From positions 124,001 to 188,000 of the forward strand of contig NEED01000073.1 of NCBI GenBank assembly GCA_002110465.1: 64,000 nucleotides of DNA, read 5' to 3'. This document shows positions 11,258-22,735 of this stretch, piece after piece. Under the pieces are notes generated by a model. That model was given only the letters and a program-made list of their open reading frames with translations. It was not told the DNA's origin and did not search any database. A program made the position numbers and the translations under genes. Source of the stretch: an unicellular cyanobacterium SU2 (GTDB lineage: Bacteria; Cyanobacteriota; Cyanobacteriia; Cyanobacteriales; Microcystaceae). Numbering within the stretch: position 1 is the stretch's first letter; each line of letters opens with the position of its first letter.

Positions 11258-11413
11258 TAGATAACTTCCTTTATTGATGAATATATATTAATTTCAATTT
11301 TTTTCAAACGTTAACACAGTCATCTTAAAATTTGCAAGTCACTAGCTTTTTTCTAGCTCTATTTATTTTTCCTCCATCTATACTCGATAGTTAGATGTGG
11401 GATGGACAGTTTG

Positions 11414-11803
11414 TTAATTGTACTGTTCGGCCATGATAATTAAATGTTCTATTTTTTTAAGGTTCTGATCTCCAGCGAGATAGCCAATTCCTCGATGCAA
11501 ATGAAGACGAAATTGAGTGGCTAAGGTTTCTTTATCGGTTCCTAGTCCATCTTGATGACACCGTTGTTTGAGGGCAATTAAGAGGATATCAGCCATGTTT
11601 CCCCCAAACACATTCCAGGTCATTTCTAGGTTACTATCAGCCGGAATGGGGACAGGAGAGGGAATACTCGGTTCCGCGAGGGAACGACAAAACCCCCAAC
11701 GACACAGGGTGTTCCAATTTTCAATTTTGGTGTATCTCTTTAGTTTAATCAGTTGATCCCTAGCAGTTTGAGATAGACGAATCTGTTTGATGGGACTGTC
11801 CAT
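11414..11803 (-). CDS. dndE: DNA sulfur modification protein DndE
   Basis: This 129-residue protein is of the DndE family, a small partner in DNA phosphorothioation that binds nicked DNA. The N-terminal half with KQIRLSQTARDQLIKLKRYT and NTLCRWGFCRSLAEPS is characteristic. So is the central TWNVFGGNMADILLIALKQR. It lies 214 bp downstream of dndD, farther than in compact dnd operons, so a separate promoter is possible. The locus and family signature agree. Confidence 0.92.
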   Translation of the reverse strand: MDSPIKQIRLSQTARDQLIKLKRYTKIENWNTLCRWGFCRSLAEPSIPSPVPIPADSNLEMTWNVFGGNMADILLIALKQRCHQDGLGTDKETLATQFRLHLHRGIGYLAGDQNLKKIEHLIIMAEQYN

Positions 11804-12017
11804 TTTTTTGTTAATTATTGTTTCAGTTAAAGAAGGGGGGTTGCCTTGGGGAGAATTTTTTGAGAAGATAAAAATATATTTTATAATGGGATTCTAAGTA
11901 TATACTCATAACCACAACCACTCCCATTATTAAAACAATAATCCCACGAATCTACCGAAAAGTCAAGGGTTAGCCCCTATTTTTACATCATCTTTTCAAA
12001 ACTTAATCTAAGAGAAA

Positions 12018-14003
12018 TCACCAAAAATAGGTTTCAGGAATAACGGTTGTTTGACGATTATTAGCATCATATTTTAGCAGATATTGGTGAGCGATCGCCT
12101 CTTGTTCTCGGAGTCGGTTGACTTCTTTTTCGCCTATTTCCGTATCGGTAGAAAGTAAGATAACCTGATGAGAAGCGGTGGGAAAATAGCGTTCAACTAA
12201 ATTACTGCGGTGGGAGGAGTCGAGACGACCCAGGGGAGTATCAATAGCGATGGGTAAATGACGACCAGACACCCTTGCGAGTCCCCACAAAAAAGCGATC
12301 GCTAATAGTTGTTTTTCCCCTGCGGATAGACGATGTTTGGGGACAGGTTGTCCATTGGGATCAAACAAAGAAAGACTAAAGTTATGGGTATCAATAGCCA
12401 CTCGATGGACTAGATCAGATTTATGTAATAAATAACGGAAACATTCGGTAACTTCCCCTTCTAACTTATTCAGTTTTTTCAAGGTTAGTTTTTCCTTAAA
12501 AAGTGCCAGAGTTTTTTGAACTTTTGCTGCTGAATTTATCAGATGTTCATTACTTTGGCGATCAATATATTCCTCGCTATAATTTTTTAATTCTTTAATG
12601 GTTTGTTGAATCAATTTTTCAATTTGTCTTTCTTTTTGTTGTTCAGCATCAAAAGCAGTTTGACATTGACTTAATTCTTTTTGTGCTTTAGTTAACGCAT
12701 CACTTAATTTTTGATAATCTTCAGGAGATGCAGCAACCTTCAATTCTCGTTCTTTGTTATCTAAATTAACTTCAATTTTTTTGAGATAATCAACTTGTTG
12801 TTTGGCTAAGTCTAGGTGAATAGGTAATTGATGATCTAACCAATTTGTCAGTTGTTTTAACTCTTCTTCTCCCACTCCTAAAAAAGGACTTACTTGACTT
12901 TCTGCATCCTGGTTTAGAGTTTGTTGTTCTTGTTCAAGAAACTGTTGAATTTTAGCAATATTATCTAAGGTTAATTGTAACTCTTCAAGATAGGACAAAA
13001 GACGTTGATCTCGTTGGTGCAAAATATCCTTAGCGATGTTAGCTTTTTGGTGTTTTAATTCGGTTTCTGCTTGTTGTTTTGCTTGAACTATAAGGGGAGT
13101 AATTAAAGCTAAGGGTAAGCTACCAGCAGCAAGATTAGTCATTTCTTGGCGTTGGCTATCTAAAGAGGTTTCTAATTGTTTAATATCCTGTTCTAATTGA
13201 CTTCTCTCGGCAGCAATTTTTGCTCCTTGAGTATGAAACTTTTCCGATGCTTGATCAAACTTATCTTTAGCCCTTTCTTTTTGATTTTTTAGGGAGGCTG
13301 AGTTTTGTTTTAACTCCTCTAATTGTTGTCGATATTGATTAAGTTTTGCTTCAATTTCTTCTAAGTTAGCAAGTTGGGAAGTATCGGCTAATTTTTTTCT
13401 TTTTCGCGAGACTAATACATCTAAGTCAATAGACAACTTTTCTGCTAATTCTAATCCTAATAAAGATTGTATGGCATCAATGACAGACTGAGGTGGGGTT
13501 TCTTGTTCAGCTAATTCTTTAACTTGTTCTCCATCGAATAAAAAGAGATTAGAAATACCTAAAGGTAATAGAGTTTCAATGTATTCATCCCAGGTATTGG
13601 CTAAGGCACTATCAGGCCAGTCTCCGTGGAGAATTCCTAGGGTATCTTTGCTATCTTTTGGGTTTTTTGTCCAAGTCCGAACAATGCGATATTCTTGCCA
13701 GTCGTCATCAACTACCTGTTTAAAAGCAAGTTCAATACGGGTGTTTTCATGAAGAGGGGTTTGGGTGTTTACTGCTTGGGTTAGGAAGTCATTGTAACTT
13801 AAATTGTTGCGAGTGGAACATTGAGCGCGTGGTCCATATAAAGCGAGACGAATGGCATCCATGAGGGTTGTTTTTCCACCACCATTCATACCACCCAACA
13901 AGATAATAGGACGAGTGTTATTATCAGTTTTTGGATTAAGATTAATAATATTTTTTCCTGCGTAGGGACCAAAGTTTTGTAGAATAAGTTCAGTAAAAAT
14001 CAT
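12018..14003 (-). CDS. dndD: DNA sulfur modification ATPase DndD
   Basis: This 661-residue SMC/Rad50-like ATPase is required for phosphorothioate insertion. The N-terminal Walker A is in GGMNGGGKTTLMDAI (about 36-50). A long Gln/Glu/Lys-rich coiled coil spans roughly residues 190-500. The ABC signature LSAGEKQLLAIAF and Walker B region HLPIAIDTPLGRLD lie near 560-600. Its ATG overlaps the stop of the upstream Uma2 gene as ATGA, so translation is probably coupled. It is the typical dndD position, between dndC and dndE, apart from that inserted gene. Confidence 0.95.
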   Translation of the reverse strand: MIFTELILQNFGPYAGKNIINLNPKTDNNTRPIILLGGMNGGGKTTLMDAIRLALYGPRAQCSTRNNLSYNDFLTQAVNTQTPLHENTRIELAFKQVVDDDWQEYRIVRTWTKNPKDSKDTLGILHGDWPDSALANTWDEYIETLLPLGISNLFLFDGEQVKELAEQETPPQSVIDAIQSLLGLELAEKLSIDLDVLVSRKRKKLADTSQLANLEEIEAKLNQYRQQLEELKQNSASLKNQKERAKDKFDQASEKFHTQGAKIAAERSQLEQDIKQLETSLDSQRQEMTNLAAGSLPLALITPLIVQAKQQAETELKHQKANIAKDILHQRDQRLLSYLEELQLTLDNIAKIQQFLEQEQQTLNQDAESQVSPFLGVGEEELKQLTNWLDHQLPIHLDLAKQQVDYLKKIEVNLDNKERELKVAASPEDYQKLSDALTKAQKELSQCQTAFDAEQQKERQIEKLIQQTIKELKNYSEEYIDRQSNEHLINSAAKVQKTLALFKEKLTLKKLNKLEGEVTECFRYLLHKSDLVHRVAIDTHNFSLSLFDPNGQPVPKHRLSAGEKQLLAIAFLWGLARVSGRHLPIAIDTPLGRLDSSHRSNLVERYFPTASHQVILLSTDTEIGEKEVNRLREQEAIAHQYLLKYDANNRQTTVIPETYFW

Positions 14004-14590
14004 TGATTAAATAGTTGCCAGATAAGACTTAAATCAAGGGTGAATTCAGGTAAAATAGTTTCTCCTGATAAAGTTGTAGGAGAGGTTAAAATTTCAAGGT
14101 TTTGTCCTTGGCGATAAATTTCTACTTGTTGAATTTTACGGTTAATTAACCAACCCAGTTGAACTCCATTTTGTTGATATTCTTGCATTTTGGCTTGAGT
14201 TTTTTTGAGGGAGTCAGTAGGGGATAACAATTCTAATACAAAGTCTGGGGCAATGGGGGGAAATTTCTCTTTTTCTTCTGATGTTAGACTATCCCATCTG
14301 TCTTGTTTTATCCAAGCAATATCGGGGGAACGGTTAGCCCCATTAGGAAGCTTGAAACAGGTGGAAGAGTCGAAAAGTTTTCCGAGTTTAGTTTGGCGGT
14401 TCCACAGTCCAAATTCAATGAGTAGTTCGGCGTTACAATTTCCTGTTTCTCCTCCTGTAGGAGACATAATTATGAGTTCTCCATTGGCGTTTTGTTCCAG
14501 TTTAAGTTCAGGGTTACGACGACACAATTGATAAAACTGTTGGTCACTCAGTTTACCTAAAGTATCTAGGTTTAGGGTATAACTCATCAT
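14000..14590 (-). CDS. Uma2-family (DUF820) putative nuclease inside the dnd operon
   Basis: Uma2 proteins have a PD-(D/E)XK nuclease-like fold and are abundant in cyanobacteria, with function unproven. The conserved segments are GELIIMSPTGGETG, SSTCFKLPNGANRSPDIAWI, FVLELLSPTDSL and the C-terminal TILPEFTLDLSLIW. The acidic and Glu residues of the putative site (PDIAW, FVLELLSP) are kept. I chose the ATG at 14590 (alternative 14587). The stop overlaps the dndD start by 4 nt. It sits between dndC and dndD, where classical dnd operons have no gene. Confidence 0.85.
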   Translation of the reverse strand: MMSYTLNLDTLGKLSDQQFYQLCRRNPELKLEQNANGELIIMSPTGGETGNCNAELLIEFGLWNRQTKLGKLFDSSTCFKLPNGANRSPDIAWIKQDRWDSLTSEEKEKFPPIAPDFVLELLSPTDSLKKTQAKMQEYQQNGVQLGWLINRKIQQVEIYRQGQNLEILTSPTTLSGETILPEFTLDLSLIWQLFNQ

Positions 14591-14602
14591 CGGGTTTCTC
14601 TC

Positions 14603-14667
14603 ACTATTAACTATCAACTATTAACTATTAACTATTAACTATTAACTATCAACTATTAACTATCAAC
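14603..14667. repeat. heptamer tandem repeats (STRR) at the dndC end
   Basis: About nine copies of a 7-bp unit (ACTATTA or ACTATCA) fill the gap between the Uma2 gene and dndC and extend into the dndC 3' end. Short heptanucleotide tandem repeats of this type are common in cyanobacteria. The same unit recurs at 23919-23946. Confidence 0.8.
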
Positions 14668-16248
14668 TTTTTTTCCAAATTTGCGATCGCCCCAAGATAG
14701 TTGTTTCGGTTGGGTTTCTTTTTCTGGGTTAAAGTTCTCTTTAAGTTGTTGTTTGACTTCGGTAATGTCTCCTTCTGCGGAGGCTTTTTTTAGTTTCCGT
14801 TTGAGGTGTGCGTTATCAATAGCTTCATCTTCACCACGGGAACTGGTTTCAAAACATTTTTCGAGTTTATTGTAGATACCTAGACGACGGGTTTTAGTAT
14901 AGAATTGACGTTCAGTGTCGAGGAGTTTGGCCATCAGTTCTAAGTGCATGGTATCGTCCCCACACAGTTCGGATAGGATGTCCCATTCATCGCTACCCAG
15001 AAGACTGTGACCTACTCCTGGCCGAGAGTCATTAAAGGGTTCTCCAGTTACTTCTTCGTAAATGCGGGGTAAACTATCATCAAATTCGTGTTTTTCTTCT
15101 AACCAAATTCGTCGTATTTCGCTGAGTTCTTCGGGAGTAATAAGGGTGATGTCTTTCATGTCTTCAGGGGCATTTTTTCTAACTTCAACTTGCGCTTCTA
15201 ATACTCGTCTTAACCAATATTCTCTCCAGTATTTTGTATAAGGTCCAGGGATGGGAACAATTTCGGTTTCCTCTTCTTTCTTGCGTTCAAAAAGTTCTAC
15301 CTTGCCATAAATGCGTCTAAAATCTCTTTTGTCTTTATCTTCTTTAAGATCTAATTCATTACGAATATCTAATAAGGGTTGTAACCATTCTTTTTCTTCA
15401 TCATTCTGTATCATTGCTTCCATCGATTTATCTTGACTTACCATTGTACAAACCCAACAACCAAACCGAGAACTACCGCAACTAGGGGTAGAAGTATCAA
15501 CGACTAAAGGACATTCATTATCTGCTGTTGCCCCTCGATACATAGCAAATAAATCTTTATTATTACTTCCCCAAGGGTTGTCCCATTGCATTAAATACAA
15601 CCAAACTTCATCAGTTCTCCAGTCTTCAATAGGAAGATAAATTAAAGAATTAGGACGGCTTGGATTAGTGTTCAGGCGATCTTTTATCCTCCATTCTCTA
15701 TGTTTAGCCATATTATTCGCCCGTTTGACACTTTCTGCTTTGCGAGTTCCAAGAACAAGGATAACTTCCCCATGCTTTCTAATAACTTCCCGTATAAATG
15801 AATCTGTCGGGCTAATTTTCATCCGTTCAGTACACCATCTAAATCTATTTCTAGGGGCTGGATATCCTTTTCCTATCAAACAAGCCCAAAAAGTATCTTG
15901 AACTGCGGGATGAGTTAGATGAGTTTTAATCGGTATCTGTTTTTTTCGCGCTACATATTGCATCTTTTCTAACGATTTGCGAACCCAAGCTGAAACTATG
16001 GGATTTTCAACTAAGGTATCATTGGTAATAACATAGATCGTTTTTGTTCGTTCCTCTAGTGGAAGGGCTGCGATCGCATTCCAAACAAGTTCAAGAATTA
16101 CTGTACTATCTTTACCTCCACTCCAGCCTACAACAATAGGGATATCTTCTTGATATAATTGTTGAATTTCTTGAGTTAGTATTTTTATATCTTCAACTAA
16201 TTCAGAAACAGTACGAGGTGGAAATAAGGATGTTTGAAGTTCTGCCAT
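14656..16248 (-). CDS. dndC: DNA sulfur modification protein DndC
   Basis: DndC is a PAPS-reductase-like, ATP-hydrolysing Fe-S protein that passes sulfur during phosphorothioation. The PP-loop SGGKDST is near residue 43. A cysteine cluster (CGSSRFGCWVC) and an earlier CTERMKISP segment fit the Fe-S binding site. The start is ATG 16248 (MAELQTSLFPP); a TTG three codons earlier is less likely. The C-terminal codons and the TAA lie in the heptamer repeat array. It follows the HNH gene by about 25 bp in the same operon. The IscS-like DndA is not encoded nearby. Confidence 0.95.
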   Translation of the reverse strand: MAELQTSLFPPRTVSELVEDIKILTQEIQQLYQEDIPIVVGWSGGKDSTVILELVWNAIAALPLEERTKTIYVITNDTLVENPIVSAWVRKSLEKMQYVARKKQIPIKTHLTHPAVQDTFWACLIGKGYPAPRNRFRWCTERMKISPTDSFIREVIRKHGEVILVLGTRKAESVKRANNMAKHREWRIKDRLNTNPSRPNSLIYLPIEDWRTDEVWLYLMQWDNPWGSNNKDLFAMYRGATADNECPLVVDTSTPSCGSSRFGCWVCTMVSQDKSMEAMIQNDEEKEWLQPLLDIRNELDLKEDKDKRDFRRIYGKVELFERKKEEETEIVPIPGPYTKYWREYWLRRVLEAQVEVRKNAPEDMKDITLITPEELSEIRRIWLEEKHEFDDSLPRIYEEVTGEPFNDSRPGVGHSLLGSDEWDILSELCGDDTMHLELMAKLLDTERQFYTKTRRLGIYNKLEKCFETSSRGEDEAIDNAHLKRKLKKASAEGDITEVKQQLKENFNPEKETQPKQLSWGDRKFGKKVDS

Positions 16249-16272
16249 AATTAACAATTATTTAATAGTTGA

Positions 16273-17214
16273 TTAACCTCGAAAGACATTTTTTTGATGC
16301 CATTGAATAGCTTCTAATTTTGGGTAGTGTTGTTCCAATTTAGGAAGTAATATTAATTCCTTCTGAAAATCTTGTATAGTTTTAGCATTTGTAGATTCTT
16401 CTATGAAACATTTAGCAACAATAATTCTATAATTTTCATCTAAACTAAACAACCCTTGATCAAATGCCCAATGGTGATTTTTGCACAGTGAAATCCCATT
16501 ATTAACTTGATTATCGTAAAATTTAGCAAGCGGTTTAATATGTGCGCCATCTACTATACTTTGTGTTAATGAGTGAATAACTTTGAGTCTACATACTGAA
16601 CATCGATAATCATAAAGATGTACAATTGCTTTACGGAAAAAGGCATTTCTGATAATAGATTTTTTGAAATATATTCTTTTGTTTTTTTCTTCAATACTGC
16701 TATTGATTTCTAAATTTTGATTAATATTTAGGATATCTTCCAGTTTTTTTTTGCTTGATAGAAACCAAGCTGCTATTAGTGTATCTGTCAATTGTTCCTT
16801 CGACTGATTATACTGTAATAACTCAAATAATTCTTGATCAATTATTGCATAATCAACATCCTCTTTTAATTTAGGTATGGTTTGAGGACGACCTCCATCG
16901 TATTCTTGACTAAATTTAAGTTTCCAAAATCCGTCATTTTTCAAATGAAAAAAAGGAAGGGCAAGTCCTCCGTTAAAAGAATCTGGACTTAATATATTCC
17001 AATATCGATTAAAAGTATTGATAAGTTCATCTGAAATGTATATTTTATTGGTTTTTATTAAGTCTTGACTGATTAAATCGATAACGGATAATAACAATAT
17101 CGGTTTGTATGGGGCTTCTCCTCTTTTTTTCGATTTATTAACCTTTATTTTAGAAAATAGTTCACAATAATCAACTATATTTTTAGAATTATTATCCTGT
17201 GGATGCTCAACCAT
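16273..17214 (-). CDS. HNH endonuclease with a likely phosphorothioate (sulfur)-binding domain
   Basis: The 313-residue protein has a C-terminal HNH_2 domain (about 200-290). Two CxxC-type Cys are in CSVCRLK, then DGAHIKPL and ISLCKNHHWAFDQGLF. The N-terminal part (about 10-130) has EAPYKPILLLSVIDL and LALPFFHLKNDGFW. This pattern recalls the sulfur-binding domain of ScoMcrA-type restriction enzymes, which recognise phosphorothioated DNA. It is the first gene of the dndC-Uma2-dndD operon. The HNH call is firm; the sulfur-binding assignment is by remembered pattern and needs a profile search. Confidence 0.8.
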   Translation of the reverse strand: MVEHPQDNNSKNIVDYCELFSKIKVNKSKKRGEAPYKPILLLSVIDLISQDLIKTNKIYISDELINTFNRYWNILSPDSFNGGLALPFFHLKNDGFWKLKFSQEYDGGRPQTIPKLKEDVDYAIIDQELFELLQYNQSKEQLTDTLIAAWFLSSKKKLEDILNINQNLEINSSIEEKNKRIYFKKSIIRNAFFRKAIVHLYDYRCSVCRLKVIHSLTQSIVDGAHIKPLAKFYDNQVNNGISLCKNHHWAFDQGLFSLDENYRIIVAKCFIEESTNAKTIQDFQKELILLPKLEQHYPKLEAIQWHQKNVFRG

Positions 17215-17320
17215 GAATTACTCACTCGGTACAATTACGAAGAAATAAGAGAAATCAGTATATCTATCATAGCGAAAAGTCAGTGTTTCCCTGGATTTCT
17301 TAAGGGTTGTTAACTGACCT

Positions 17321-18562
17321 ATGATGAGAAAGGGTAGTAATTCTTCTATATTGACATCATCTATGTTAGATTCAACACCTCATAGCGAAATTAGCCAACA
17401 TCTGAATAAAGCCTTAGAAACCTATTTCGCCCAGTATTATCGAGAAAAATGCTATGTTGGCCTATTTTTCAAGCAAGGGAAGCGGAAGATGGTACAAATC
17501 AATGTTCCTGCTCATGACTTACCTATTTTACTACAAGCGAAACCTTCAGAGAATAATGACCCCGATTCAGGAAAAAATCGCCCTGTTATTGCTGGTCACG
17601 CAGATGAAGTTAAAGATTATCTTTTAAAACGTATCAAACGGGATAAATCGTGGATATTAGGAACCCTCACCGCTAATATTAATCCAAAAAGAATTGAACT
17701 AATTGAATTAGCTAGAGGAATTGGGTTAGTGGTTATTCCCCGTGGTGTTAAATTAGATATTACCGATGGACAACATAGAAAACAAGCTATTCATGAATTG
17801 GTGGAAAGTTCTGAGGGAGAATTGATAGGAGATAATGACTTTCCCATTACTTTAGTATTAGAAGAAGACTTTAATCAATGTCAAAGTGACTTCCGAGATA
17901 TGGCGCAAAGTAAAGCGTTAGATAAGTCTTTATTGCTGTCTTTTGGGGAATTTGAGGGACGGGTAGGAATTACTAAGAATTTAATTCAACAAGTACCTCT
18001 GTTTACTAATAAAACAGAAACGATTAAAAACACTCCCTCAACTAAAAAGAAACTCATCTATACTACCAATTTTATCGCCCAAATGGTGAGTTGTGCTTTT
18101 GCTAATAATACCAAGGTAGAATTAGAAGATTTAGATGTTGACCAAGCAACTAATGCGTTAGTAAGCTGCTTAAATAAGTTTTTCTCTGAATGCAGTCATA
18201 CTCGACCTATTTTTGAAATTCCTATCGAATATTTGACTATTGAACAGGTGGGTGATTTTAAAGAAGATTGTTTGTTAGGTCGTTATGTTGGACTCGAAGT
18301 GTTAGGTCGTTTACTCAACAGTGCTTATAATAAAGATGACTGTCATTTTGATAGTGTCAAAATTACTCAATTATCTCAACTAGATTGGTCTAGAGGTAGT
18401 CAACTGTGGTCAGGTAATATTGTTACCATTGATCCTAATCCTAAAAACCCTGCTAAACCTTATAAAATATCCGTTAGCATGAGTACAGTCAAAATTGCAG
18501 TGGATCAAGTAAAACTTCATTTAGGTTGGATACAACCCCCACAAACTCCTAACTTATTCTAA
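17321..18562 (+). CDS. DGQHR-domain protein (DndB family)
   Basis: This 413-residue protein carries the DGQHR motif (LDITDGQHRKQAIHEL, about residues 145-160). The motif defines the family containing DndB, a regulator of dnd operons. It starts 106 bp from the divergent HNH gene, so the two share a control region. A 108-residue gene follows by 13 bp. It differs in length and sequence from the broken dndB at 19887-20870, so it is a distinct member. An ATPase or regulatory role is possible but not shown. Confidence 0.8.
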   Translation: MMRKGSNSSILTSSMLDSTPHSEISQHLNKALETYFAQYYREKCYVGLFFKQGKRKMVQINVPAHDLPILLQAKPSENNDPDSGKNRPVIAGHADEVKDYLLKRIKRDKSWILGTLTANINPKRIELIELARGIGLVVIPRGVKLDITDGQHRKQAIHELVESSEGELIGDNDFPITLVLEEDFNQCQSDFRDMAQSKALDKSLLLSFGEFEGRVGITKNLIQQVPLFTNKTETIKNTPSTKKKLIYTTNFIAQMVSCAFANNTKVELEDLDVDQATNALVSCLNKFFSECSHTRPIFEIPIEYLTIEQVGDFKEDCLLGRYVGLEVLGRLLNSAYNKDDCHFDSVKITQLSQLDWSRGSQLWSGNIVTIDPNPKNPAKPYKISVSMSTVKIAVDQVKLHLGWIQPPQTPNLF

Positions 18563-18929: not shown

Positions 18930-19505
18930 TTACCAAACTTGTCGCATATCCAAAACAAACCCTGGTAAAATGTCTTCCCCTGACAAAGATACAGGAAAGT
19001 CCAAAACCTCAACCTCTTGGTTTTGACGATACACTTCAACCTGTGTTTGCTGAGGGTTAATTAACCACCCCAACCGTAACCCGTTATCAAGATATTTCTG
19101 CATCTTCTTTTGTAACTCTTCTATCCTATCAGTTTTAGGCCGTAATTCCACCACAAAATCAGGACATAAAGGAGGAAATTGATCTTGTTGTTGGGGGGTT
19201 AACTGTTGCCATTTTTGCTGCGATACCCAGGCCACATCAGGGGAACGAATAGCAGTATTAGGAAGATAAAACCCTGTTGAAGAATTAAAGACAATTCCTA
19301 AACCCGTTTGACGGTTCCATAACCATAATTGTCCCTCTATTTCTAGATTCTTTCGACCCGTATTTCCCTCCGTCGGTGGCATAATTATTAATTCTCCTGT
19401 TGCAGTCTTTTCTAACTGCAAATCTCGGTTAACCTGCGTTAACACTTCAAATTGTTCTTGAGTTATTTTAAATTGAGGAGGAATAGTCAAACTGTCAAAA
19501 GTCAT
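18930..19505 (-). CDS. Uma2-family (DUF820) putative nuclease
   Basis: The second Uma2 member of the island, of about 191 residues. Motifs are GELIIMPPTEGNTGR, SPDVAWVSQQKW, CPDFVVELRPKTDRIEEL and the C-terminal DILPGFVLDMRQVW. I prefer ATG 19505 (MTFDSLTIPPQF). A GTG at 19526 would overlap the stop of the upstream small gene by 4 nt (GTGA) and is also plausible. It is clearly related to the protein at 14000-14590. Function in cyanobacteria is unproven. Confidence 0.82.
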   Translation of the reverse strand: MTFDSLTIPPQFKITQEQFEVLTQVNRDLQLEKTATGELIIMPPTEGNTGRKNLEIEGQLWLWNRQTGLGIVFNSSTGFYLPNTAIRSPDVAWVSQQKWQQLTPQQQDQFPPLCPDFVVELRPKTDRIEELQKKMQKYLDNGLRLGWLINPQQTQVEVYRQNQEVEVLDFPVSLSGEDILPGFVLDMRQVW

Positions 19506-19522
19506 GATTAATTTTGCTGCGT

Positions 19523-19726
19523 TCACCGAAGGTGCGCTTTTAGCGATCGCTTTTCAATAAATTCCCGAACTTTATCAACATCTAGGTTAACAATATCCGC
19601 GATCGCTTCTACTGTAAACCCCTTATTTAACAAGTTAGCAATAATCTCTGATTTTTCTTTTTCAAGAACTTCATCACGGATACTTTGATAAAGTCTCGAT
19701 TTTTTAAACTCATCAACACTAAACAT
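19523..19726 (-). CDS. 67-residue Rpn-type C-terminal tail protein (possible remnant)
   Basis: This short protein begins MFSVDEFKKSRLYQSIRDEV and ends with an HTH-like KGFTVEAIADIVNLDVDKV. This is the usual C-terminal tail of Rpn-family recombination-promoting nucleases or PD-(D/E)XK transposase-like proteins. The catalytic part is missing. A strong ribosome-binding site (GGAGGAG) lies before the ATG, so it may still be expressed. It may be a truncated relic or a real small gene paired with the adjacent Uma2 gene. Confidence 0.55.
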   Translation of the reverse strand: MFSVDEFKKSRLYQSIRDEVLEKEKSEIIANLLNKGFTVEAIADIVNLDVDKVREFIEKRSLKAHLR

Positions 19727-19886: not shown

Positions 19887-20870
19887 CTAATCTAAATATC
19901 CTAGTAAATAAGTGATGATTTCATCTAAATCAACTGAAGTTTCAGACAATAACCAATCAACCCGTTTTAACTGTGATAACTTCTCTTGCCAATGATCAGG
20001 ATAAGTTTCTAATAACAGTTGTCCAACTTTCCCTAAAGCAGTCAAGATAATTCCTTGTCCCGATAAATAATTATCTCGTATTTCCTCTAAGGTTAAACTT
20101 CCTTGTTTAATTCTTTTCCAGTCTTCCATATAAAGACTGACTTCTTGCCAATAGGAAACCCCTAAGTTAATTTTGTCTTCAATACTTCTCTCTTGATATT
20201 GACGCAATAATTCAACAGTTCCTTAATATAAACTATTGAGGGTAAACAATTTATCTGAATTTTTAGGAATAGTATTTCCTTCAAGATAAATTAACCGTTG
20301 CAATAGAGAAACTTGTTTGACAATAGCTTGTGTTACTAACCCATATTGATCACGATGATCGTAGAGAAGGGTTAACGAAGATGGCAAAGTCACCCCCCAA
20401 CGGTTAAGATCACAAAAGATTTGCTGTGACCTGTGTAACCCCGTATCGATAAACAACACCACTGCGATAGTTTCATAACACAAACTAGGGTTTTCCCGTA
20501 ACGCAACTTCCAACGCAACCCGACGATGTAACCCATCATTGATGGTTAAACTCCCATCCATCGGAATACGCAACCGTCCTAACTTGCGTTCTTCTGCAAC
20601 CTCTCCCAAGGGTTCAAAAATAATATCAGCGTCGATAGTCGCAGTAATTGACCCAAAAACATAATCTTGTGGATTTTTTAGGACATAGTTGGCTATTTTA
20701 TTAATCCTACTTTTGTTTATACGCCGTTGCGTTCGCTGTTGAGGTTCCAAAGTGTAATTGGGTAACGGAAACAACTTCGGAAGAATACCCAAGGGACACA
20801 TGGTTACATAATATTCTTGTTCTGCCTGAATACCACGAATGACGGGTAAAACATATTCAAACCCAGTCAT
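19887..20870 (-). pseudogene. dndB: dndB interrupted by one in-frame stop codon
   Basis: DndB represses dnd transcription in other bacteria. The frame starts at ATG 20870 (MTGFEYVLPVIRGIQ). It has the DndB-type site INDGLHRR in place of DGQHR, and reads 215 codons to TAA at 20225-20223 (TTA TAT TAA GGA). The same frame then continues through GTVELLRQYQERS to a stop at 19887, giving about 327 codons in all. The downstream part is protein-like and collinear, so a single nonsense change (for example from CAA) is the simplest reading. Sequencing error cannot be excluded. Confidence 0.8.
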
Positions 20871-21121: not shown

Positions 21122-22735
21122 ATGAACCAAACCTCCAACGAACTCGTTAACCAAATTTTGCAGCAGGAAACCGAAGAAAAACAGGTTTTATCCCTACTTT
21201 TAGACCGTCATTTGTCCCGTCATGATCAATTATTGGTTCAAAAAACTCAGATGGGGTCAACCCAAGGCTATATCGGTTCCGTGTCCTTAGAATGGTTAGC
21301 CAGTCGAGTCCGTTTTGCCGCACAACTACCCTTATTTCAACGAAAATACGACCATAAAACCGATAATATTATCCGAGATGCTGAAACCGTCGAAGAACTC
21401 CAACAACGTCCCCTAGACTGGTCGCGTCAGTCCCATTTAGCCCAATATTTAGCTGTCCTTGAAAATCATAAATTTCCCCCTGTGTTGGTGGTAATCAGTG
21501 GGGGATGGGTTAACGATCCCGATGCAGAAGAATGGGACACCGAACGCCAAGCTATTCGTACTGTAGCCGATTTCATCCCATTAGATCAACAAAACACTGT
21601 GGGGCTGTTGAATATTAGCGAAGAATTCTCAATTTTTGCCCTTGATGGACAACATCGCCTGATGGGAATCCAAGGATTAATGGAACTTTTAAAAACAGGA
21701 AAATTAGAGGTTTATAATAAATATAAAAAGCCCACAGGTGCAATCATTACCATTGATGATTTAATTAAAGAATATGGGGTAAACTCTGCCTATTTACAAA
21801 AGTTAGCCCAAGAAAAAATAGGAATTGAAATCATACCCGCAGTCGTTAAAGGAGAAACCTATGAAGAAGCGAGAAGACGGGTAAGATCAGTATTTGTTCA
21901 TGTGAACCGCATGGCCATTTCTTTAAGTAAAGGACAGTTAGTATTATTAAATGAAGATGATGGGTTTGCTATTATTGCCAGACGCATTGCAATTAGTCAT
22001 CCTCTATTTAAAGATCAAGATAATGATGACTGGAAACCTAGAGTAAATTGGGATAGTGCAACTATTTCTAGTAAGTCAACTGTGTTAACGACATTGCAAG
22101 CATTACAAGATATGGTAGAAGGGTATTTAGGGTATAAATTTGACCATTGGAAAAACAAAGATAAAAAGAATTTAATTTCCTTAAGACCTGATGAAAAGGA
22201 ATTAGAACAGGGTTTCAAAGAAGCTAAAAAAGTCTTTAATTATTTAGCTAATCTTCCCAGTTATGAAAGACTAAAACATGGTTACAAAACCTTTGCATTA
22301 AGACGGTTTAGCCATGAAGGAGAAGGAGGAGAGGCTAATATTTTATTTCGTCCTGTGGGTCAAATTGCTTTACTACAAGCATTAGGATTTTTAGTGTTTA
22401 GAAAAGGGGTTGCCTTAAAAACTGTCTGTGAAAAATTACGAAGATTTGATCTAGAAGGCGGGTTTGATGGGATAGAAAACTCAAGATCAATTTGGTATGG
22501 TATTTTCTATGATCCTATGAAAAAAAGAATACAAGTTTCAGGAAAAAAATTAGCTACTCGATTAATGATTTATCTATTGGGTGGGGTCGAGGATGATTTG
22601 GAAAAAGCAGAAATTCGTAAAGCATTAGCTGAGGCGAGAACGATTAAAGATGCTGCTACAAACGAAGAAAAAACAATTGATTTTAAAGGGAAGTTTGTCG
22701 ATCCTAAAAAAGTTGGGTTACCTCATATTTTGTGA
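21122..22735 (+). CDS. DGQHR-domain protein (DndB family), long form
   Basis: This 537-residue protein has the motif FALDGQHRLMGIQGL near residue 178. A long region follows with VFVHVNRMAISLSKGQ and several charged helical segments. It is much longer than DndB and is probably a separate family member. It is transcribed away from the broken dndB, with the phased palindromes between them. The start ATG has no clear Shine-Dalgarno; the 60 bases before it form a C/T-rich tract. It may act as regulator or effector in the dnd island; this is inferred. Confidence 0.75.
   Translation: MNQTSNELVNQILQQETEEKQVLSLLLDRHLSRHDQLLVQKTQMGSTQGYIGSVSLEWLASRVRFAAQLPLFQRKYDHKTDNIIRDAETVEELQQRPLDWSRQSHLAQYLAVLENHKFPPVLVVISGGWVNDPDAEEWDTERQAIRTVADFIPLDQQNTVGLLNISEEFSIFALDGQHRLMGIQGLMELLKTGKLEVYNKYKKPTGAIITIDDLIKEYGVNSAYLQKLAQEKIGIEIIPAVVKGETYEEARRRVRSVFVHVNRMAISLSKGQLVLLNEDDGFAIIARRIAISHPLFKDQDNDDWKPRVNWDSATISSKSTVLTTLQALQDMVEGYLGYKFDHWKNKDKKNLISLRPDEKELEQGFKEAKKVFNYLANLPSYERLKHGYKTFALRRFSHEGEGGEANILFRPVGQIALLQALGFLVFRKGVALKTVCEKLRRFDLEGGFDGIENSRSIWYGIFYDPMKKRIQVSGKKLATRLMIYLLGGVEDDLEKAEIRKALAEARTIKDAATNEEKTIDFKGKFVDPKKVGLPHIL

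Follow-up and report, generated by a model that had tools for sequence, protein, structure and literature searches.

A Uma2-family gene recurs between dndC and dndD in cyanobacterial phosphorothioation operons and may encode an optional nuclease component

Uma2 genes are abundant in cyanobacteria and their role is unknown, so that one lying inside an operon of known biochemical product raises the question of whether it belongs to that operon or only resides there. We consider this question for a 64,000-nt stretch of DNA (the window) from contig NEED01000073.1 of the unicellular cyanobacterium SU2, whose 5.24 Mb draft genome is designated G000. An initial annotation of the window had placed a Uma2 gene between dndC and dndD of a dnd operon, and both the coordinates and family profiles confirm this position. 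The minus-strand order obtained from the window open reading frames (ORFs) and profile searches is SBD-HNH, dndC, Uma2, dndD, dndE, with the following features.

11414-11803, minus strand: dndE (TIGR03184, 132.7 bits, cut-off 71.85)
12018-14003, minus strand: dndD (TIGR03185, 690 bits, cut-off 245.85; top PADLOC model PbeC)
14000-14590, minus strand: Uma2a, putative PD-(D/E)XK-type nuclease (PF05685, E 3e-49; 1wdj, E 1.7e-33)
14603-14668, unstranded: 7-bp tandem repeat of 9.4 copies, covering the end of dndC and the spacer preceding Uma2
14656-16257, minus strand: dndC (TIGR03183, 680.7 bits, cut-off 290.4)
16273-17214, minus strand: SBD-HNH nuclease of the phosphorothioate-dependent type (NF045808, E 8e-40), 15 nt ahead of dndC

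DndC, DndD and DndE all exceed their NCBIfam equivalog cut-offs, as expected of a Dnd modification operon. A full-length DndB was not found in the window, the nearest homologue (20223-20870) reaching 264.7 bits against a cut-off of 328 and a plus-strand paralogue 70 bits. Uma2a belongs to the Uma2/DUF820/COG4636 family (PF05685; 1wdj, 3ot2, 6okh, 9y1l), here met inside a dnd operon: it scores 167.2 bits against the Pfam model (cut-off 27), matches essentially the whole of it (positions 2-171 of 172) and aligns with 1wdj over residues 15-200 (E 1.7e-33). We take the fold of Uma2 and 1wdj to be of the PD-(D/E)XK type; to our knowledge, no function has been tested for the family to date. Of 14 dnd-linked rows, all have E129 and K143, and 13 have E41 and D99, the exception being a partial frame; these four residues belong to the predicted active site, where we infer a catalytic role. 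The mechanical ORF call starts Uma2a at a TTG at 14617, but alignment with the slot copies of two other loci, L074 and L072, makes the ATG at 14590 the likelier start. A scan of 11300-17400 returned 23 promoter-like sites (19.4 expected) and 10 terminator-like sites (4.3 expected), an outcome that is not decisive; none of these ten terminator-like sites lies on the minus strand between dndC and Uma2.

DndC is present in 314 of the 388 genomes of the order and in 32 of the 50 genomes of the family. From DndC match lists blind to Uma2 we assembled 200 loci besides the window, among them the remaining 31 of the family, and scored the slot between dndC and dndD with a broad Uma2 profile. Seven loci hold a Uma2 gene there, two in the window's family f1 (L072 and L074) and five in family f33 (L024, L028, L138, L149 and L299), which, with its genus g97, we guess to be Nostoc-like. 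A later batch added 16 slot carriers among 50 further loci, although this batch is biased toward Uma2, its genomes coming mostly from a Uma2 listing. All 23 slot copies share the orientation of the dnd genes, and the stretches read contained no antisense Uma2 in the slot (dndD lay within reach in 194 of 250 loci). Uma2 is thus found repeatedly at one place in dnd operons, which supports that part of the initial annotation; the arrangement is neither peculiar to this strain nor absent from its relatives at large, though the same-genus G169 lacks it. The annotation had also reported a 4-nt overlap between the end of Uma2 and the beginning of dndD and had taken their translation to be probably coupled. 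The overlap was read directly at 14000-14003 (ATGA); however, an overlap of this length occurs in the window only, and tight coupling is not general, since L072 has a 1-nt overlap (TAATG), L074 an 11-nt spacer and most f33 carriers about 190 nt between Uma2 and dndD. Slot sizes range from below zero to several kb, and lengths other than these junctions may be off by a few codons owing to the pattern used for the dndD start. No Uma2 was found in 82 dndD-dndE slots, which total only 20 kb, nor was any Uma2 remnant detected at E 1e-3 in 172 non-carrier dndC-dndD slots.

The Uma2 proteins of dnd loci form clades of their own, which was the phylogenetic test proposed at the outset. The window protein (Uma2a) groups with those of G331 (Cyanothece sp. 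UBA12306) and G129 with an SH-aLRT of 97, and these two, at 77% and 74%, are also its top matches in 50 family genomes. The f33 slots contain two separate clades, Uma2c1 (G210, G312 and G386; support 99/96) and Uma2c2 (G168, G387, G383 and more; support 100/100). Since the slot proteins fall into three separate clades, at least three lineages each took a Uma2 gene into the dndC-dndD slot separately. We searched 217 f33 genomes for Uma2c2, scoring at most about 14 candidates per genome, so that stray copies are possible. Among the matches listed, 20 of 20 copies at 93% identity or more adjoin dndC, and the next ten relatives with loci (nine at 86-90%, one at 83%) are not beside dndC; a further relative at 89% in G482 lies on a different contig from that genome's dndC. 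On a tree of 30 Uma2c2 proteins and relatives the slot label changes once (100/97; 0/500 shuffles), and Uma2c2, the largest of the three slot clades, looks locked to the slot. Adjacency to dndC is also complete for Uma2a (3/3) and Uma2c1 (3/3), as it is for the 20 listed Uma2c2 copies, although only part of the candidates was scored and plain linkage predicts the same.

The slot genes are intact and under purifying selection. For Uma2a the ratio of nonsynonymous to synonymous substitution (dN/dS, Nei-Gojobori) is 0.17-0.18 in three pairs, for which dndC gives 0.13-0.21; it is 0.106 for Uma2c1 (three pairs) and has a median of 0.199 for Uma2c2 (152 of 153 pairs, range 0.027-0.496). Each of the 21 Uma2c copies measured has an open frame, 206-210 aa long. 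Uma2c2 also diverges little: among 17 carriers its median difference at four-fold sites is 0.089, compared with 0.125 for the 3′ end of dndC, 0.203 for recA, 0.227 for the 5′ end of dndD and 0.408 for the 5′ part of dndC, and it lies below recA in all 136 pairs. On a recA tree of 29 genomes (17 with Uma2 and 12 with transposase slots) the slot state needs six changes, at least four of them forced, and on the dndC tree slot Uma2 is patchy, with 12 changes, at least five forced. From these comparisons Uma2c2 seems to have moved between species into the same slot, with a vertical part in addition.

The reading that we prefer, to which we give an even chance, is that Uma2 is an optional dnd-linked gene for a PD-(D/E)XK-type nuclease, likely the DNA-cutting arm of the system for restriction or as a backup. 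Transcription would read through from dndC into Uma2, the nuclease would thus be made together with the phosphorothioate (PT) writer, and it would act as the cutting arm in systems without DndFGH. It might restrict DNA that lacks the PT mark or, alternatively, serve as a backup that destroys DNA once the dnd system is disturbed. The accessible part of PMC8569181 reports Cyanobacteria to be without dndFGH, and that of PMC10853773 proposes other nucleases in Dnd neighbourhoods as restriction or suicide parts; given these two statements and the PD-(D/E)XK family, an accessory DNase role appears the likeliest. Because cyanobacterial dnd systems are so reported in PMC8569181, as far as its accessible part goes, a nuclease encoded within the operon makes a concrete restriction candidate. 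We consider it rather unlikely that DndC-Uma2-DndD(E) amounts to an undescribed PT-based defence subtype in which Uma2 is a PT-gated restriction subunit where DndFGH is absent; if true, this would be the first function for the large Uma2 family. A Uma2 clade tied to an operon of known biochemical product in any case offers the family a defined partner and a simple assay, and the dnd slot is a direct way to test the job of these genes. Among the literature matches listed we found no paper joining Uma2, DUF820 or COG4636 with phosphorothioate, although subscription papers or supplements may mention them.

Several observations weigh against the preferred reading. The window's genome contains 52 Uma2 matches, about 10 per Mb, and 36 other genomes contain from 13 to over 70 each (about 2.5 to over 10 per Mb; counts of about 71 per genome are lower bounds), so that a lone Uma2 beside dnd is unsurprising; that of the window is more than a chance neighbour because it is conserved in other genomes. 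The 147 slots measured among the 200 loci total 73.4 kb; were slot DNA like the rest of the genome, a density of 10-20 per Mb would put about 0.7-1.5 Uma2 genes there, and fewer in Uma2-poor genomes. The seven carriers exceed this expectation but represent only three lineages, one of them the window's own, for which reason the excess by lineage is not significant and three captures do not clearly exceed chance. The slot is also occupied by toxin-antitoxin genes and transposases: among 64 gap proteins (Pfam was run on 64 of the 73 gap ORFs of the first 120 loci, nine short ORFs being excluded) there were 12 IS200-type transposases and four Uma2, along with MazEF, DUF29 and others. In G169 dndC is followed by dndD after a 106-nt gap, both genes being intact. 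The dN/dS values show function, not dnd function. For Uma2c2, the slot state is clustered on the recA tree (4/500 shuffles), which is a vertical signal; its distances correlate weakly with those of recA (Mantel r 0.303, 114/3000) and of the dndC 3′ end (r 0.350, 94/3000) and not with those of whole dndC (r 0.046), and its low four-fold difference could result from slow evolution.

Scars of Uma2a in Crocosphaera loci (genus g10, including G322, G325 and G293) belong on the same side. Two are clearer, namely L068, where the start of Uma2a follows dndC (28/29 bp, E 5.7e-8; no dndD in the stretch read), and L087, which retains the end of Uma2a (20/20 bp, E 5.5e-5); L069, L078 and L080 are weak. 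In the same search the window's tandem repeat matched an unrelated slot, L300, at E 6.1e-5, and because this value is similar the L087 scar also rests on its position. Uma2a was thus probably once present in the g10 loci, as these remnants suggest, and then lost, with dndC kept, and dndD too where in reach. A gene lost in relatives that keep dndC is dispensable; on the preferred reading, such losses would fit a restriction-type part that can go while the modification part stays. We rejected a single vertical history of Uma2a, as a dndC tree of 29 rows does not unite the genera of carriers and scars (p-AU 0.039, four changes). A dndD tree of 16 rows groups the window with G331 and G169. Because dnd loci recombine, the tree does not reveal gains and losses, and the scars alone show loss.

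These points bear most directly on the possibility that Uma2 is a passenger cassette, in that the gap tolerates insertions, a common small gene sits there uninvolved in phosphorothioation, and recombination spreads whatever the slot contains. We regard this as possible but would not bet on it. It agrees with the wide range of slot sizes, the other cassettes, the high Uma2 copy number and the losses and scars of Uma2a, and also with the flanks, which are equal in carriers of Uma2 and of IS200-type transposases: the dndC 3′ ends differ by 0.057 between the two classes and by 0.048 and 0.060 within them, and the dndD 5′ ends by 0.075 between and by 0.075 and 0.074 within. It has more difficulty with the 20/20 slot lock of one clade among the matches listed, the purifying selection, and the lack of any remnant in the 172 non-carrier slots, of any antisense copy in the slot, and of Uma2 in the 82 dndD-dndE slots, small as their total of 20 kb is. 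Chance and neutral linkage are poorer explanations of why the genes are intact and why Uma2c2 has spread and looks locked to the slot. As a side observation, IS200-type transposases lie in the slot on the operon strand at many f33 loci (L104, L106, L153, L159, L161 and others) and in 14 of 25 compared non-carriers. A scan of genome contigs with the window Uma2 gave 40 loci, one of which (UBA12306) is a dnd locus within the available flanks; that Uma2a relatives are mostly outside dnd loci is as expected for a captured gene.

Uma2 could instead be a site-addressed selfish nuclease that spreads into the dndC-dndD junction in a homing-like manner and then decays. Cyanobacteria are known to have a homing endonuclease of the PD-(D/E)XK kind, and the similar position in divergent loci, the patchiness on the dndC tree, the divergence below recA and the Crocosphaera scars are all what such an element would leave. 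In Uma2c2 carriers the last 500 nt of dndC are of low divergence (0.046; 1/5000 shuffles), whereas the 5′ parts diverge as much as in other loci (0.177; 2551/5000), which resembles co-conversion; however, 14 control loci with transposase slots have the same 3′ tract (0.059), and we therefore rejected co-conversion as a sign of homing. Since the tract is common to IS200-type transposase slots, ordinary recombination around the slot accounts for how Uma2c2 moved. Moreover, no clean empty site for Uma2c2 was found, the non-carrier slots having only the dndC and dndD ends in common with unrelated DNA between them, and no decayed Uma2c2 was found in the 172 non-carrier slots. Homing is accordingly improbable in our estimation. 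It is more improbable still that Uma2 is a regulatory or structural part, which would bind DNA or DndC/DndD without cutting and tune the modification complex or the expression of dndD. The overlaps with dndD, of 4 nt in the window and 1 nt in L072, would suit it, but the predicted catalytic residues are conserved in the dnd-linked rows and about 190 nt separate Uma2 from dndD in most f33 carriers. As a side observation on the tract, nt 200-700 of f33 dndC diverge much more strongly than the 3′ end does (0.19-0.23 versus 0.01-0.07 in Uma2 carriers), as if the 5′ part were exchanged or diversifying, possibly in connection with target choice.

With the DndBCDE plus DndFGH system the window has in common dndC, dndD and dndE, likewise in order, but Uma2 splits dndC from dndD and dndB is truncated. 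As for DndFGH itself, Cyanobacteria are reported to be without it in the part of PMC8569181 that is accessible, and no search of this genome for DndF, DndG or DndH was made. IscS-DndBCDE-DndI, as described in the accessible part of PMC11662687, resembles the window in having one extra nuclease gene alongside the PT writer; DndI, however, consists of DUF262 and a DUF1524-type HNH, whereas Uma2 is of the PD-(D/E)XK type and the HNH gene of the window has an SBD. The CxC ABC-ATPase/DndE systems (PbeABCD) of PMC10853773 share with our case the notion that Dnd neighbourhoods hold nucleases of various kinds. To judge from what is accessible of that paper, it puts certain standalone restriction endonucleases at boundaries, while the Uma2 genes described here are inside the operon, and the word Uma2 is absent from its main text.

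The initial annotation had noted a second Uma2 gene in the island, and it was found at 18930-19526 in the surroundings of the operon:

17321-18562, plus strand: DndB-family paralogue, divergent (PF14072, E 1e-87; TIGR03233, 70 bits, below the cut-off of 328)
18930-19526, minus strand: Uma2b, the second Uma2, of another dnd-linked clade by tree and match list (PF05685, E 1.1e-45)
20223-20870, minus strand: truncated dndB homologue of 215 aa (TIGR03233, 264.7 bits, below the cut-off of 328; residues 2-213 of 355)
21122-22735, plus strand: DGQHR-domain protein at the island edge (TIGR03187, 174.9 bits)

Uma2b is a member of a fourth dnd-linked clade (support 100), which unites it with Uma2 proteins of dnd loci in G301, G304 and G316; these are also its top non-self matches in 50 genomes. 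In G316 the frames run from a helicase-like one through one of 52 aa, a DndD-like ATPase (scoring 71 bits against the window DndD) and one of 135 aa, which has 4-nt overlaps at both sides, to Uma2b, HNH and dndC; the labels other than DndD-like, Uma2, HNH and dndC were read by eye with no profile match. By analogy, this run resembles the CxC-DndE (PbeABCD) arrangement in the accessible part of PMC10853773. Helicase-like, 52-aa, DndD-like ATPase and 135-aa frames followed by HNH and dndC also occur in L071 (1683-8439), L070 and L083, a run that looks like a CxC/Pbe-like module fused to HNH-dndC; Uma2b precedes HNH in L070 and L071, and a different frame holds that place in L083. In L071 Uma2b thus adjoins HNH-dndC in what is apparently an operon of the PbeABCD kind, as far as PMC10853773 describes it in its accessible part. 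Canonical dndD was not found in the stretches read of L070, L071 and L083.

The gene at 16273-17214, the last of the interval first annotated but unmentioned there, encodes an SBD-HNH-type nuclease and is not dndB. It matches NF045808 over its full length with 136.7 bits, below the cut-off of 180, and thus falls short of formal membership; separate structure matches were obtained to the SBD of 8h0l (E 3.6e-15) and the HNH of 6ghs (E 9.4e-5). Pfam recognizes only HNH_2 in it and its N-terminus is SBD-like, so that it differs from the DUF262 plus DUF1524 HNH composition of DndI. Like the endonucleases EcoWI and Mae9806I (PMC7461809, accessible part), it combines an SBD-like N-terminus with an HNH C-terminus; unlike what is held usual there, it directly precedes dndC. 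According to the accessible part of PMC7461809, such enzymes are expected to be rare near a dnd cluster (<3.6% of predicted enzymes), since such an enzyme would cleave the PT-DNA of its own cell. Of 180 loci surveyed, 29 have an SBD-HNH-type gene immediately ahead of dndC and in the same orientation, and the pairing is not rare in these cyanobacteria. At some loci, e.g., L074 and L087, the gene is split into two broken frames.

The window locus itself looks chimeric, its dndC being sister to that of G316 (100/100) and its dndD grouping with those of G331 and G169 (100/99), and block identities within the window dndC change over near column 350. A 67-aa frame at 19523-19726 overlaps the start of Uma2b and is similar to the C-terminal end of longer proteins encoded in L073 and L083. 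Given this frame and the truncation of dndB at 215 aa, the island holds decayed pieces.

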